A stretch of DNA of 64,000 nucleotides from Armatimonas rosea (GTDB lineage Bacteria > Armatimonadota > Armatimonadia > Armatimonadales > Armatimonadaceae): positions 496,001 through 560,000 of the forward strand of contig NZ_JACHGW010000003.1 of NCBI RefSeq assembly GCF_014202505.1. Reading direction: 5' to 3'. Below, in pieces: positions 43,134 through 49,179 of the stretch. Every line of letters starts with the position of its first letter. The first letter of the stretch is position 1. The notes under the pieces are model-generated. The model was given only the letters and a program-made list of their open reading frames with translations. It was not told the origin of the DNA and ran no database searches. Made by a program: the position numbers and the translations under genes.

Positions 43134-43215
43134 CACCCCCCAACTTTTCCCCCAGACACGGCGATAAATCCTTTGTAGGTGCATGAGCACGCTACCGAAG
43201 GAAAGGTCGTTGACA

Positions 43216-44277
43216 ATGGGGCGTGTTAAGATCTGGCTGATCGTTTTGTTCTGCTGGTTGGGCTCGCTTAGCTCTACAGGGACAGCGCACGCGGTGGTGC
43301 AGTGGGCGCGCCAGTACCAGCTCCCTTGCTCAGGCTGCCACGCCGGATTTCCCCGCCTGAACGAGGCCGGGATTCGCTTTCGACAGCTCGGCTACCGCTT
43401 CGATCCCGATGAAAAGCCCCGTGTGGTCCCCGAGCAGCTGATCGGACCGACCTGGGCGCCTGGAATGACACTTGGGACAGATGATAGCATCGCCATCCAG
43501 CGCCGCGGTGTCAAGATCCATGTCGGGGGCGCGGTCTCGTCGCAGCTTGCCTTTCTGGTCCAGCCCACCCCCGGCGAGAAGAATGCCTTCAACATGGCCC
43601 AAGCGATGGTCAACCAGGGAGCATTTCGCCTGACCGCGGGCCGGGTCTATGCCTGGGAGAACGGTGGCGGGGTGGGGGCGGGCGATCGGTTTCCCACGGC
43701 GAATCTTCCGCGGATGCTCACAAGCTTGGGGAAGGTCGCGGCAGGGGGGCTGGGAAATGGCTTCCGGCTCGATCACACCGACGCACACGCCAATACGGCG
43801 TCGGTCTTCTCCACCGATCTGCGCGGCAGTGGGACCGCCACCCCGACACGGGGAATCTCCCTCACCCGCCGCTACGATCCCAAGGCGCTACGCTACGCCG
43901 AGGTCTTTGGAGGGAGCTCGCAGCTACCAGGGGGAGGGACCGCCCAGCGGATCGGCGCGACATTCAGCCACGCCCTGGATGGGCCGGCGGCGTCCGGGCC
44001 GAGGTGGGTCCTCCTAGGGGGCGCACTCTACGGAACGGGCGGCGGCTACCTGTCTGCGGGATTCTTGGAGGCGGACTGGCTCCCCACCAACCGAACCCTC
44101 GTTCTGATCCGCACCGACCTGGAGCAAGGGACGGTGGCGCGTAGCACCCGTGGCGGACTGGCACTGGGGGCCGCTCTGCAGCTCACGGCGCAGCAGCGGC
44201 TGGACCTCGACTGGATACCCGTTCGGGTGACGAGCACCGCTGCACCCCTCAACGCACGGCTCCGATTTTTCTACTAG
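43216..44277 (+). CDS. Outer-membrane beta-barrel protein with an N-terminal CxxCH haem motif
   Basis: A 353-residue exported protein. After a signal peptide (MGRVKIWLIVLFCWLGSLSS, then TGTAHA) comes one c-type haem-binding motif, LPCSGCHAGFPRLNEAGIRF, followed by repeated amphipathic strands ending RLRFFY; the aromatic C-terminus and alternating pattern indicate an outer-membrane barrel. Similar proteins with this CSxCH-FPRLN signature occur next to multihaem cytochromes; here none are present. An in-frame ATG at 43183 exists, but AAGGAAAGG precedes 43216, where the signal peptide starts. It may pass electrons or act as a redox-gated porin. Confidence 0.8.
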   Translation: MGRVKIWLIVLFCWLGSLSSTGTAHAVVQWARQYQLPCSGCHAGFPRLNEAGIRFRQLGYRFDPDEKPRVVPEQLIGPTWAPGMTLGTDDSIAIQRRGVKIHVGGAVSSQLAFLVQPTPGEKNAFNMAQAMVNQGAFRLTAGRVYAWENGGGVGAGDRFPTANLPRMLTSLGKVAAGGLGNGFRLDHTDAHANTASVFSTDLRGSGTATPTRGISLTRRYDPKALRYAEVFGGSSQLPGGGTAQRIGATFSHALDGPAASGPRWVLLGGALYGTGGGYLSAGFLEADWLPTNRTLVLIRTDLEQGTVARSTRGGLALGAALQLTAQQRLDLDWIPVRVTSTAAPLNARLRFFY

Positions 44278-44278
44278 C

Positions 44279-44725
44279 CTACCGCCGCGCACTCAGAATC
44301 CGTGGGTTTGTGCGGCGCACCGGGGCCTCCGGCTCGTCGCTCTCGGAGTCGGCGAGGGTATCGCTGAGCAAGCGGAGGACATGATCTAGGGGAGTGGCCT
44401 GCTCACGGAGGGCGGCGCGCTGTGCCTGATACTGCCTCTCCTGCTTCTCTACCTGGGCTTCACACCGGGCGAGCTGGGCATGGAGCTCCTCCAGCTGCTG
44501 CTGGTGCTGGGCTTGGAGTCGCTCTAGCTGCTGCTGGAGCTGGACACGCTGCCAGACGGCTTGGCCCAGCAAGTCGCTCTGTAGCGCGGGGTCGAGGGCG
44601 TAGTGCTTCTGAAGGATCTGACTCAGGGTGCTGGTGCGGAGCGCCGCGGGGAGGTTGTCGGGGAGTGAGCCTAGGAGCTGGCCTAGCTGGGGGAGGGTAA
44701 GCGAAGAGGGGGTGGAGAAAGCCAT
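44279..44725 (-). CDS. Coiled-coil protein with SLPDNLP motif (paralog A)
   Basis: A 148-residue protein of unknown function. An N-terminal region LTLPQLGQLLGSLPDNLPAA is followed by LGQAVWQRVQLQQQLE and a long Gln/Glu-rich coiled coil (LQAQHQQQLEELHAQLARCE), then HVLRLLSDTLADSE. It aligns throughout with the gene upstream of it (44790-45509): both have SLPDNLP, LG(Q/E)A(V/T)W and QQL at the same spacing. Start taken at the ATG at 44725, although an in-frame ATG exists at 44752. It is the last gene of the ParB-like/Roadblock operon. Confidence 0.75.
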   Translation of the reverse strand: MAFSTPSSLTLPQLGQLLGSLPDNLPAALRTSTLSQILQKHYALDPALQSDLLGQAVWQRVQLQQQLERLQAQHQQQLEELHAQLARCEAQVEKQERQYQAQRAALREQATPLDHVLRLLSDTLADSESDEPEAPVRRTNPRILSARR

Positions 44726-44789
44726 GATGCCCTGCGGGTTTGCAACATGCATACCAGCAGGGCATCTGGAGGGAAATATCGGGGAGGGC

Positions 44790-45509
44790 CTATGACTCGC
44801 TGATTCCCAGGAGCCGCCCGGCAGTCTCTTCGCGAAGGTGCGGGGGGAGCTCGGCGGTGTGGCCCGTGGCGAACGTAGGGGTGCCGGGGCTACCCGCGAG
44901 GTCTGTCCCGAGGAACTGAATCACCCGGACCATCTGGTCCATCTGGCCCACGACCTCGTCGCGGAGCTTGTCAAACTCGGCGTTGATGCTATCGCGGCGC
45001 TTGAGCAGGTTCTCGATCTCCGCGTTGAGTGCCTGGGTCGCCGAGTGGTGCTGCTCGTCGAACTGTTTGAGCTGCTGGGTCATCTGCATCTTCTTCCAGG
45101 TTGCTTCTCCCAGGATGGTCTCGACATCGGCACCCTGGTCCTTGCCCTGGTTCTGGATGGCGTTTCGGATCGCGGCCCGCTTGACCCGCATGGGCAGGTT
45201 GTCGGGTAGCGACGAGAGCATCTGGTAGACGGACTCCGGGGAGAGGCTATCGCCGAGGCTCACCACCGGAACCCCCGCCTCGGCTACGGGCTCGACGACA
45301 GGAGCAGCGGGCTCAACCGCAACTGGGGCAGCCGGGGCGGGGGGAGCGACGACAGCCTGCGGAGTGGCGGCACTCGCCTCGGCCACTGTCCGTTTCGAGG
45401 CAACTCCCGGAAGCTCCAGGTAGTCTTCCTCTTCCTGTGTCGTGTTTGCCGTGTTGGTATCAACGAGGTTGTTGTTGACCAGCTCGCGCAGTTTCTTTGC
45501 TAGGTTCAT
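44790..45509 (-). CDS. Coiled-coil protein with SLPDNLP motif (paralog B)
   Basis: A 239-residue protein. The N-terminus (MNLAKKLRELVNNNLVDTNT) is basic and amphipathic and may bind membrane or a partner. A Pro/Ala/Val-rich linker (~40-90) leads to the domain shared with paralog A: SPESVYQMLSSLPDNLPMRV, ILGEATWKKMQMTQQLKQFD, then a coiled coil (NAEIENLLKRRDSINAEFDK) and MVRVIQFLGTDLA. Start at the ATG at 45509, just before which the coding pattern ends. It lies 31 nt after the ParB-like gene. Function unknown; the build suggests an oligomeric scaffold. Confidence 0.78.
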   Translation of the reverse strand: MNLAKKLRELVNNNLVDTNTANTTQEEEDYLELPGVASKRTVAEASAATPQAVVAPPAPAAPVAVEPAAPVVEPVAEAGVPVVSLGDSLSPESVYQMLSSLPDNLPMRVKRAAIRNAIQNQGKDQGADVETILGEATWKKMQMTQQLKQFDEQHHSATQALNAEIENLLKRRDSINAEFDKLRDEVVGQMDQMVRVIQFLGTDLAGSPGTPTFATGHTAELPPHLREETAGRLLGISES

Positions 45510-45540
45510 GCTAGGTTTCTCTCTGTAGGAAATAAAAATT

Positions 45541-46740
45541 CTAAGCGGCCTTGAGGACGGGGAGCTCCATGCCTTGCGGGACATAGCGGGGCTGGAAGTC
45601 CGAGCAGCGGTAGGAGACTGCCTCCTCCGTCGGGGCCTCGGCTTCGTCCTTGGCGATCGTCGTTCCGTACTCACGGCACCAGCTTTGCTGGGGATCGAAG
45701 TGCCCACAGTCCGCACAGCGTCGCAGGACCGTAAAGCAGGTCGAGCACCGTAGCGCCCCCACCAGCTCGATCCGCCCACAGAGGGGACAGTGGATATAGA
45801 GCTCACGGAAGCCGTAGTCGGCGCTCTCTAGGGCTCCGCGGACCTGCTCGGCGAGGGAGCTGAGGTGGCCCGCGGCGCGGGTAAGGAGGGCCAGGAGGCG
45901 GTTCATGTCCTCCATGCCCAGAAACTCGACAATCCGAGGGTCGATCGTATCGATGACGCCCGTGACTTGTTTATCCAGGACCTTTAGCTGCTCGTGTGCG
46001 GTCTGAGGGCGGTAGGGCTTGCGGCGCTCATCGGTGGCCTTGAGGGAGCGGATCATCTGCTCGCTGACCCCACTTCCCACACGTAGAAAGACCTCGCTCT
46101 TCTGGGGGTACTGCTGGATCGCGGCGACGGTCTGCTCGACTTGGGCGACACTGAGGCGCTCTTGTTTGATCTTCTCCATCAAGCGCGCCTGGATCTTGGG
46201 CATCCCATTGAGAGGGAGCAGAGCGCGGGCATGGCTCTCGGCAAAGGCGCCGGTGTTGGTTCCCTCGCCCTTGCGCTCGGCGAGCTCGGCCTGCATGAGC
46301 TCGGGGAGCTGGAGCAGATCGAGAGCTCGGCGCAGGGTGGTATCGGAGACCCCGAGAACCTTCCCCACTTTCTCCATGGGCATCTGCTCGAGCAGGGCAG
46401 CGATGGCCCGAGCACGCTCGATAGGGTTGAGGTCCTCACGCTGGAAGTTCTCCAGGAGCGCATCCGCCGCCGCTTCATCGTCGGTGAGCGAGCGAACAAT
46501 CGCGGGGATATGGGTCTTCCCCGCCAGGTGGCTCGCTCGGAAGCGGCGCTCGCCCATGACAATCTCATAGCGAATCTCGCCCGTGGAGAGAGTCTTGGGA
46601 CGAACGACAATGGGCTCTAGGACACCCCGCTCGCGGATGGAGTTGGAGAGCTCCTCCAGCGAGTCCTGGTAGAAGGTCTTTCGGGGCTGGTCCTCGGCTG
46701 CCTGAATCAGCTCGAGAGGAAGTTCTATGAATGTGGACAT
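45541..46740 (-). CDS. ParB/Noc-like CTPase-fold protein with a C-terminal zinc ribbon
   Basis: A 399-residue ParB-family protein. Residues ~1-110 are the ParB N-domain with the nucleotide-binding motif IVMGERRFRASHLAG and the following LLENFQREDLNPIERARAI; residues ~115-145 form a helix-turn-helix (MEKVGKVLGVSDTTLRRAL). Unlike ParB or Noc, the C-terminus has a Cys-rich zinc ribbon (CPLCGRIELVGALRCSTCF, then CADCGHFDPQQSWC) and a final C in YRCSDFQP. ParB proteins load onto DNA at parS and slide as CTP-dependent clamps. No ParA adjoins; instead the neighbours are Roadblock and coiled-coil proteins, so a role other than plain chromosome partition is likely. Confidence 0.9.
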   Translation of the reverse strand: MSTFIELPLELIQAAEDQPRKTFYQDSLEELSNSIRERGVLEPIVVRPKTLSTGEIRYEIVMGERRFRASHLAGKTHIPAIVRSLTDDEAAADALLENFQREDLNPIERARAIAALLEQMPMEKVGKVLGVSDTTLRRALDLLQLPELMQAELAERKGEGTNTGAFAESHARALLPLNGMPKIQARLMEKIKQERLSVAQVEQTVAAIQQYPQKSEVFLRVGSGVSEQMIRSLKATDERRKPYRPQTAHEQLKVLDKQVTGVIDTIDPRIVEFLGMEDMNRLLALLTRAAGHLSSLAEQVRGALESADYGFRELYIHCPLCGRIELVGALRCSTCFTVLRRCADCGHFDPQQSWCREYGTTIAKDEAEAPTEEAVSYRCSDFQPRYVPQGMELPVLKAA

Positions 46741-46797
46741 CTTGCTCTGCTTAAGTTATCGGCAGAACTGCCTCACAAAAATAGGCTCGTCATGAGA

Positions 46798-47223
46798 TTA
46801 TGCAGAGACTCGGTAGTTGTAGAGTGCCTCGGCTTCGTCCTCACCTAAGAGGCCCTCGCCCGCTTGAAACTCACTGCGGATCAGCTCGAGCTGGATCCCC
46901 AGAGACGCTTTGGTATCGTCGGTTTCCTGGAGCAGGAGGCATAGATAGAGGCCGCTCTCGGGGTCATGGGAGAGAGGGGTGATACAGACCTCGAACTCCG
47001 GGAGCTGGAGGCGCATCTCCTGGACCAAGTCCTCGTTGGCCTGGGGCTCCAGATGGACACGGATCGTGTTGAGCGAGCGGGCGTAGTCCGATGCCAGACG
47101 ATCTGCCTCCATTGCCTCGTGGCCCCCCGAGCCCATGCAGACTCCGGTAGCTAGATCGAGGACCGAGGCACCGCGTACACCCGGCAGGGGGGTAAGGATG
47201 TCGAGCACCGCCTGGATGGTCAT
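46798..47223 (-). CDS. Roadblock/LC7-like protein
   Basis: A 141-residue protein with the Roadblock/LC7 pattern: an N-terminal helix and glycine turn (AVLDILTPLPGVRGASVLDL), a beta strand with variable loop, a helix, then EFEVCITPLSHDPESGLYLC and a C-terminal helix (TKASLGIQLELIRSEF). Roadblock proteins dimerise and regulate small Ras-like GTPases such as MglA, or serve as polarity adaptors. No GTPase gene adjoins. It overlaps the upstream Roadblock-like gene by 4 nt (ATGA), so the two are probably translated together, perhaps as a heterodimer. Confidence 0.8.
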   Translation of the reverse strand: MTIQAVLDILTPLPGVRGASVLDLATGVCMGSGGHEAMEADRLASDYARSLNTIRVHLEPQANEDLVQEMRLQLPEFEVCITPLSHDPESGLYLCLLLQETDDTKASLGIQLELIRSEFQAGEGLLGEDEAEALYNYRVSA

Positions 47224-47588
47224 GCTGCCACCACCGGTGCCATGAACTGTCCCAGAGCCGCCAGTGACTGACGAACACGCGCCAGATCCGCACGCTTGGG
47301 ATCGAGGATCACCTGGAGAAAGAGCCCCGCATGGTTCTTACCGGGCAGGGGCCGTAGCACAAAGGTGTAGTGCTCCTGGGAGATCACGATATCCCCGACC
47401 TGGTCACGCAGGGCGATGGCATGGAGCCGTGCGAGGCGTGGGTTCAGGTTGGCCCCCTCGGGGAGGGCCTCCGGGCGAGCACTAGAGTCGAGCGGAAGGT
47501 GACGGGCGGTGTCGGTGTCAAAGAGCGAGACTTGACGGATTCCAGTGAGCGACAGGAGAGCGAGAAAGACGGGCGATGCTAGTACCAT
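47220..47588 (-). CDS. Roadblock/LC7-like protein (first gene of the ParB-like operon)
   Basis: A 122-residue protein with a Roadblock-like outline: helix plus turn (FLALLSLTGIRQVSLFDTDT), a helix (NPRLARLHAIALRDQVGDIV), strands VISQEHYTFVLRPLPG and AGLFLQVILDPK, and a C-terminal helix (ADLARVRQSLAALGQF). The match is weaker than for its neighbour. ATG at 47588, preceded by AGGA about 11 nt upstream. It overlaps the next gene by 4 nt and heads the five-gene operon. Confidence 0.65.
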   Translation of the reverse strand: MVLASPVFLALLSLTGIRQVSLFDTDTARHLPLDSSARPEALPEGANLNPRLARLHAIALRDQVGDIVISQEHYTFVLRPLPGKNHAGLFLQVILDPKRADLARVRQSLAALGQFMAPVVAA

Positions 47589-47802: not shown

Positions 47803-49179
47803 ATGCTAAAAAGAAAACAACTCCTCATGACAGGAGGCCTGCTCCTGGGAGGAAGTGCGATCGCGCATGCCCAGACACCTAAGGCCGCGTTTACACCCGA
47901 CAGTGGTGATACCGCCTGGATGCTCGTGGCGACCGCGCTCGTCATGGTGATGACCCCAGGTTTGGCTTTCTTTTACGCGGGGATGGTACGCCGCAAGAAC
48001 ACGATCAATGTACTGATGCAGTCGTTTGTGGCGATCTCCGTAGTCACCGTGCTCTGGTTGCTCGTGGGCTATAGCCTGAGCTTTGCGCCGGGAAGTCCTG
48101 TGATTGGGGGACTGAGCTATGTCTTCCAAGCCAACACCGATGCGGCACAGCAGCTGACTCTCAATGGGGCCGCACTGACAATCCCCCACCCCCTCTTCAT
48201 GATCTTCCAGATGATGTTTGCCATCATCACTCCCGCCCTGATCTCCGGCGCGATCGTGGACCGCATGAAGTTTAGCGCCTATCTGTTCTTTATCGCCGCA
48301 TGGAGCCTCTTGGTCTACTCGCCCATGGCACACATGATGTGGGGCGAGGGCGGTCTGTTCTTTAAGATGGGGGCCGTGGACTACGCCGGTGGCACGGTGG
48401 TGCACACCCTGGCCGGTGTCTCCGCGCTGATCCTTGCGACTCTGGTGGGCCGCCGCAAGTTTATCCGCGGTGAGGAGACCCGCCCCCACAACGTTCCCTT
48501 TATCCTCCTGGGAACGGCGCTGCTCTGGTTTGGCTGGTTTGGCTTCAACGCAGGCTCTGCGGGTGGTGCTGGAAATGTCGCCACCAACGCCCTGATCGTC
48601 ACCCATGTCTCCGCTGCCGTGGCTGCGGCGGTCTGGATGCTGATCGACGTCATCCGTGGGGGCAAGCCGACCGCGTTTGGCTTCGCTGCCGGTGCGGTGA
48701 TCGGCCTGGTCGCCATTACTCCTGCGTCGGGCTATGTCTCCCCGCTCTCCTCAATCGTGATTGGGGCCGTTGCCTCTGTGGTGGGCTACCTCGGGGTGCA
48801 GCTCAAGGAGAAGATCCGCTACGACGACTCCCTCGATGTGGTGGCCGTGCACGGCATGGGCGGTATCTGGGGAATGCTCAGTGTTGGCCTCTTTGCGAGC
48901 AAGGCGATCAACCCCGCAGTCAACAATGGCCTGTTCCTCGGTGGCGGCGCGACCCTGCTCCTCAACCAGTTCATGGCAACCGCCGCCGCCGTCATCCTGG
49001 CGGGTGTTGGTAGCCTCGCGATTGGCATGCTGGCCAAGGTGCTCTTCAAGGGACTCCGTGTGGAGCCGCAGGAAGAGGGCATCGGGCTCGACGAGACCGT
49101 GCACGGCGAGACTGCCTACACGGGTGAGGACCTTACTCTGGTCGCAGCGGAGCAGGAGCACTTCAGCAAGGCTGCCTAG
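47803..49179 (+). CDS. amt: Ammonium transporter Amt
   Basis: A 458-residue AmtB/Mep/Rh-family channel with a cleavable signal peptide (MLKRKQLLMTGGLLLGGSAI, then AHA) and eleven transmembrane helices. Key features are TPGLAFFYAGMVRRKN, the first conserved pore His in TVVHTLAGVSALILAT, WFGWFGFNAGSA, and the second pore His in DVVAVHGMGGIWGMLS. It conducts ammonium across the inner membrane. No glnK/glnB regulator lies next to it; a 48-residue membrane-protein gene and a terminator follow instead. Confidence 0.95.
   Translation: MLKRKQLLMTGGLLLGGSAIAHAQTPKAAFTPDSGDTAWMLVATALVMVMTPGLAFFYAGMVRRKNTINVLMQSFVAISVVTVLWLLVGYSLSFAPGSPVIGGLSYVFQANTDAAQQLTLNGAALTIPHPLFMIFQMMFAIITPALISGAIVDRMKFSAYLFFIAAWSLLVYSPMAHMMWGEGGLFFKMGAVDYAGGTVVHTLAGVSALILATLVGRRKFIRGEETRPHNVPFILLGTALLWFGWFGFNAGSAGGAGNVATNALIVTHVSAAVAAAVWMLIDVIRGGKPTAFGFAAGAVIGLVAITPASGYVSPLSSIVIGAVASVVGYLGVQLKEKIRYDDSLDVVAVHGMGGIWGMLSVGLFASKAINPAVNNGLFLGGGATLLLNQFMATAAAVILAGVGSLAIGMLAKVLFKGLRVEPQEEGIGLDETVHGETAYTGEDLTLVAAEQEHFSKAA

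Follow-up and report, generated by a model that had tools for sequence, protein, structure and literature searches.

A five-gene operon that appears to join a ParB-type DNA clamp to Roadblock and coiled-coil proteins lies on the minus strand of Armatimonas rosea contig NZ_JACHGW010000003.1, within a 64,000-nucleotide stretch (positions 496,001 to 560,000) referred to here as the window. The window falls within genome G000 (6.3 Mb, 98% complete). From 47588 to 44279, five codirectional open reading frames (ORFs) follow in the order RB1-RB2-ParBz-CC1-CC2, and exactly these five genes are also called independently by a codon-usage gene caller. The preferred reading, given a probability of roughly 0.4, is that the operon encodes an orphan Noc-like, cytidine triphosphate (CTP)-gated DNA clamp whose zinc-ribbon end is new, along with coiled-coil scaffolds that dock through peptides and a heterodimer of Roadblock proteins. 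No system of this five-gene composition was found described, as the original prediction, made from the letters of the window alone, had also supposed, and ParBz would seem from its sequence to be a variant of the ParB kind not described before. Restraint on novelty is due mainly because the five-gene set is so far a single-genome arrangement.

ParBz (399 amino acids (aa), 45541..46740; all operon features are on the minus strand) begins with a ParB_N CTPase domain (PF02195, E=5e-32; aa 5-100, 46441..46728) bearing QPRK, GERRFRA and ENFQRE, and continues with an HTH_ParB (helix-turn-helix) domain (PF17762, E=1e-14; aa 102-209, 46114..46437). The CTP-pocket motifs are all kept (QPR at aa 18, GERRFRA at aa 63, ENxQR at aa 97). 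Relatives in the Protein Data Bank (PDB) are Spo0J, Noc and KorB, and the top NCBIfam match is Noc (TIGR04285, 2e-47, under the model's cut-off). Despite its long branch, the window ParBz keeps 97 of the 104 positions invariant in 20 relatives, which points to purifying selection. ParBz is therefore expected to bind CTP and to act as a clamp, closing on DNA after loading at some site.

The C-terminal half departs from this pattern. A helical segment (aa 223-306, 45823..46074) leads into a double zinc ribbon (45604..45789), in which a 32-row alignment shows eight family-invariant cysteines with double-ribbon spacing (aa 318, 321, 332, 335, 342, 345, 355 and 379); weak double-zinc-ribbon matches to PF18912 and PF12773 are found in the same region. 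The ParB-family assignment, GERRFRA and the ribbon had all been noted in the original prediction. In an AlphaFold model covering aa 200-399 (predicted local distance difference test (pLDDT) 79, predicted template modelling score (pTM) 0.47) the ribbon region comes after long helices, and a fold search with this model against the PDB returned nothing under E=0.4, the best small matches being unrelated zinc fingers. ParBz has no match to the ParB dimerisation domain ParB_C (PF23552) at E<=10, whereas an ordinary ParB from genome G002 matches it at 3e-6. The helical segment and ribbon stand in place of the dimerising C-terminal domain and may form a dimer interface, a partner interface, or both. 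The N-terminal LG[RKS]GL-type peptide, required for ParA binding (PMC12462528), is present in none of 21 ParBz proteins, and the single ordinary ParB among the gene sets compared, from G002, carries it. Since this peptide is missing, ParBz would not work with ParA as ParB proteins usually do. The QPR motif is preceded by 14-26 residues only, as against the N-terminal amphipathic membrane-targeting helix of Noc, a comparison that considers length alone.

For a long time ParA-driven segregation was held to be the only role of ParB clamps, until Noc and KorB showed otherwise; Noc works without ParA. Like the Noc and Spo0J-ParB clamps (PF02195 plus PF17762; TIGR04285, TIGR00180), ParBz has the CTPase domain with its motifs and the HTH; unlike them, it is without ParB_C and the ParA-binding peptide, and has a double zinc ribbon and coiled-coil and Roadblock partners. 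The main text of a 2025 survey of the ParB-CTPase fold describes HTH, dimerisation, HNH, UPF0020, DUF3850, CBS and other fusions, and ParBz resembles these in joining the ParB fold to lineage-specific domains (PMC12704722). That text names no zinc-ribbon form, Roadblock protein or Armatimonadota, and the survey's Pfam-based method would miss the ParBz ribbon (PMC12704722). The literature search found no paper combining ParB, zinc ribbon and CTPase; most subscription journals lie outside its coverage, so this absence is no proof.

CC1 (239 aa, 44790..45509) and CC2 (157 aa, 44279..44752, with an alternative ATG at 44725) both carry SLPDNLP, LG(E/Q)A(T/V)W and QQL at equal spacing (100/133/145 vs 29/62/74). 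Their 61-aa pre-coil segments, which in CC1 span aa 87-147 with SLPDNLP and LGEATW, align with a score of 100, the highest of 5,000 shuffles being 48, and blastp with the coil included finds 26% across 129 aa (E=2e-9). The predicted paralogy is borne out: CC1 and CC2 are homologous outside the coil.

The C-terminus of CC1 holds a peptide, tail A (ELPPHLREETAGRLLGIS, aa 220-237, 44799..44852; located by tail pattern and matrix), whose general form is ELPxYLRxDTAxRLLGI and which is common to coiled-coil (CC) proteins and to two Roadblock proteins of G002 encoded near smc. A DNA pattern for tail A has ten matches in 26 genomes, seven of them in CC or Roadblock genes, vs three for the reversed control pattern. 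When a matrix is made from nine CC tails and nothing else, the two G002 Roadblock proteins score 35 and 33 bits, and the best unrelated protein among 1,159, drawn from the gene neighbourhoods of the loci collected rather than from whole proteomes, scores 13.9. Tail A thus ties the Roadblock and CC families together independently of the window operon, and its sharing implies a partner to which all its carriers bind. The same five of 12 family-mates (G000, G001, G002, G003 and G008) have both tail-A carriers and clade-A ParBz, which makes ParBz a candidate for that partner. CC1 and CC2 would then be scaffolds recruited to the ParBz clamp, the CC1 peptide serving as the docking sequence. A second recurrent tail, NPR[IKR]L, was recognised by eye; it is C-terminal in CC2 as NPRIL (44294..44308) and occurs in the CC paralogues L055 and L056, while L062 has the similar NRRRL, all of these paralogues being without tail A.

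RB2 (141 aa, 46798..47223) has an AlphaFold model of alpha-beta-beta-alpha-beta-beta-beta-alpha topology (pLDDT 65.7, pTM 0.62), obtained with RB1 as the sole alignment partner. The 50 Foldseek matches listed against the PDB are all Roadblock/LC7 proteins (LAMTOR/Ragulator, MglB, dynein Roadblock) or complexes containing the fold, with probability 1.00 and a best E of 2.5e-5. RB2 is accordingly modelled with the Roadblock/LC7 fold. RB1 (122 aa, 47220..47588) is assigned to the same Roadblock family by family profile only: a held-out profile of nine relatives, RB1 excluded, detects it at E=3.4e-10, and a profile without RB2 detects RB2 at E=1.8e-5 (both scaled to 5,000 proteins). One row of the held-out profile, G000:C1, was in a wrong reading frame, which could only make the detection weaker. 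Against the PDB, the six best matches of the family profile are dynein Roadblock chains (E 0.02-0.26), weak alone, yet specific. The two Roadblock/LC7-like proteins of the original prediction are in this way recovered, RB2 by structure and RB1 by profile. The Pfam Roadblock model PF03259 matches neither, and a scan of all G000 gives two sub-threshold matches only, both outside the operon; the family diverges from this model. Single-sequence searches with RB2 over 60 and 291 genomes gave no convincing relatives and profiles were needed; the RB1 query found relatives in G002, G003 and G060. The RB family is present in five of 291 Armatimonadota genomes.

RB1 and RB2 would form a Roadblock heterodimer acting as a GTPase-free adaptor within the same assembly as the clamp. 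In Myxococcus, MglC and MglB, two dissimilar Roadblock proteins of one pathway, form a complex (PMC7949163). RB1 and RB2 are likewise a dissimilar pair; unlike MglB/MglC (PMC7949163), they come with no MglA-like Ras/Rab-type GTPase that could be found, and are coupled instead to a ParB clamp gene. The Ragulator/LAMTOR Roadblock heterodimers, among which RB2 has its best fold matches, also build a scaffold from paired Roadblock domains; unlike the bacterial pair, they are eukaryotic, have Rag GTPase partners and sit at the lysosome surface. A polarity module of the MglA/MglB type, with the clamp positioned by a Ras-like GTPase under the control of the Roadblock pair, is suggested by the resemblance of the RB2 model to MglB. 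It is nevertheless disfavoured and very improbable: the operon contains no GTPase gene, and in a search with a single model, PF08477 (Roc), G000 has no match at E<=0.01, whereas the 14 control genomes are all matched. With the ParA peptide missing as well, neither a GTPase nor ParA is a likely partner by the usual route. The predicted role of the Roadblock pair in connecting the clamp to a GTPase or ParA is thus without positive support, apart from the clade-A ParBz genes that stand divergent from parA in two relatives.

Full-length ParBz relatives are spread across much of Armatimonadota. A GTDB-wide contig scan requiring the ribbon gave 36 loci; no other phylum is named in any of their records, several of which are labelled only 'bacterium'; named relatives retrieved with ParBz are Armatimonadota. 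The family, defined by an eight-cysteine C-terminal double ribbon after ParB_N-HTH, appears restricted to this phylum. Searches of plasmid, phage and viral collections gave no ParBz matches, and defence-system models gave weak coiled-coil noise only. G000 has three full-length copies. In the ParBz tree the window copy is sister, with support 95/96 and a branch length of 0.79, to the coiled-coil-linked copies G000:C1 and G001:C116, G001 being the sister species; the clade holding it also includes the parA-adjacent copies of G002 and G008. In G004:C375 (L225:157-2364) a 735-aa protein joins a 340-aa N-terminal region without a Pfam family to ParBz with a variant ribbon, CPLCSQ.

The gene is typically stand-alone and chromosomal, with varied neighbours. 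This setting, the fold match to KorB, the lack of an adjacent parA in the window and the absence of relatives from the plasmid and phage collections would all suit a KorB-like, CTP-switched transcription regulator, with the small proteins as co-regulators and the operon controlling itself or neighbours such as amt, and no part in segregation or positioning. Such a regulator is unlikely, since no conserved operator-like palindrome is found upstream of 40 distinct ParBz genes, and coiled-coil scaffold-like partners and Roadblock adaptors are atypical co-regulators. The same 40 upstream regions, searched for palindromes and k-mers, gave no convincing shared parS-like site; a recurrent CCATAAT there resembles a -10 element.

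ParBz might also be an accessory of the chromosomal ParABS system, acting with ParA and ordinary ParB while the CC and Roadblock proteins tune the machinery. In G002 and G008 clade-A ParBz and parA are divergently arranged; G002 also has the ordinary parB close by, and a Roadblock cluster immediately before smc. Quite unlikely all the same, this explanation has to contend with the missing ParA-binding peptide in all 21 ParBz examined, with a window copy that has neither parA (absent from the ORF list) nor canonical parS, and with the lack of a nearby parA at most ParBz genes. The smc locus itself, G002:C63 (L103:1034-3335), has three genes of Roadblock-like type, two of which encode the CC-type tail.

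Several observations weigh against an orphan Noc-like clamp with docked scaffolds. The complete five-gene set occurs in G000 alone, and an RB gene adjoins ParBz nowhere else among the 291 Armatimonadota genomes; ParBz normally stands alone and is paired with a CC gene at two other loci only (G000:C1 and G001:C116), so that the five genes do not stay together in relatives, an outcome that the original prediction had named as refuting it. No loading site was found, the canonical parS scan of the window giving one 3-mismatch match where about one is expected by chance. The clade-B ParBz tree groups the five genomes that have clade-A ParBz and tail A into a single clade, so one event may account for the co-occurrence. 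Tail A in the window is on CC1 and absent from RB1 and RB2. In the CC tree, CC1 is not sister to the other ParBz-linked coiled-coil proteins, long branches making its placement unsure; for the same reason the tree gave no resolution as a test of co-duplication with ParBz. A search for clade-A-specific ParBz residues as a docking site yielded two positions only and was uninformative.

Some of these points bear on a further explanation, that a recent, fast-evolving ParBz-CC duplicate landed beside two Roadblock genes and shares with them a promoter and not a mechanism. The long branch of the window ParBz (sister to the C1 and C116 copies), the RB pair found only here and the lineage-specific expansion to nine CC paralogues in G000 would fit it. 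Retention of the invariant positions and of all eight cysteines, the ATGA overlap with tight gene spacing, and the joining of Roadblock and CC families by tail A elsewhere speak against it, and it is considered improbable.

Under the preferred reading, the orphan Noc-like clamp, the assembly would mark or tether a nucleoid region in the manner of Noc-type ParB proteins rather than drive a segregation motor. The original prediction of a positioning or segregation apparatus, with a CC scaffold and a Roadblock link, is upheld in part: a functional Roadblock-CC link is supported through tail A outside the operon, which had not been foreseen, while the five genes do not stay together in relatives and the GTPase or ParA link is not supported. 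It is doubtful that the system amounts to a new nucleoid-bound scaffold, in which a zinc-ribbon CTP clamp recruits interchangeable coiled-coil or Roadblock clients through one C-terminal docking peptide with neither ParA motor nor GTPase. A ParB family confined to one phylum, with a zinc ribbon added and both the ParA peptide and the dimerisation domain lost, would show how the CTP switch is rewired to new outputs, and the case would be one of bacterial Roadblock proteins working without a Ras-like GTPase. Tail A, common to Roadblock and CC proteins, offers a directly testable handle on binding partners.

The arrangement of the locus agrees with the prediction of five codirectional genes with an ATGA overlap. 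RB1 and RB2 overlap by this tetranucleotide (-4 nucleotides (nt)) and spacers of 57, 31 and 37 nt separate the later genes. The flanking genes (43183-44277, and amt at 47803-49179) are both on the plus strand, making the five-gene set a discrete, self-contained transcription block. CC2 (ending at 44279) and the convergent plus-strand gene (ending at 44277) end one base apart, which leaves no space for an intergenic terminator. A promoter scan gave no sigma-70-type match, and the terminator count was at chance level.

Stand-alone Roadblock proteins are encoded beside a PAS hybrid histidine kinase gene and a gene for a REC-REC-HD protein in G000:C1 (L129:2681-7299) and G001:C131 (L130:5760-10345), possibly forming a Roadblock signalling operon. 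The CC family is present in 44 of the 291 Armatimonadota, mostly as a single copy, with nine copies in G000 and seven in the sister species. In most other loci inspected the CC gene lies in an operon with a solute-binding protein, an ABC permease, an ABC ATPase and a membrane-type protein, and PspA adjoins in three genomes; the family descends from this ABC-transporter operon, and the window pair is therefore a derived branch of an older family. The conserved Armatimonadota operon, seen at L208-L223 (e.g. L208:6508-11858), comprises an OmpA-fused NMT1-type solute-binding protein, ABC permease, ABC ATPase, a membrane/coil protein and a single CC protein. Three other genomes, all from one family, have a PspA/IM30 gene after the CC gene (L085, L086 and L088), and L085 and L086 also have an AAA ATPase farther along.

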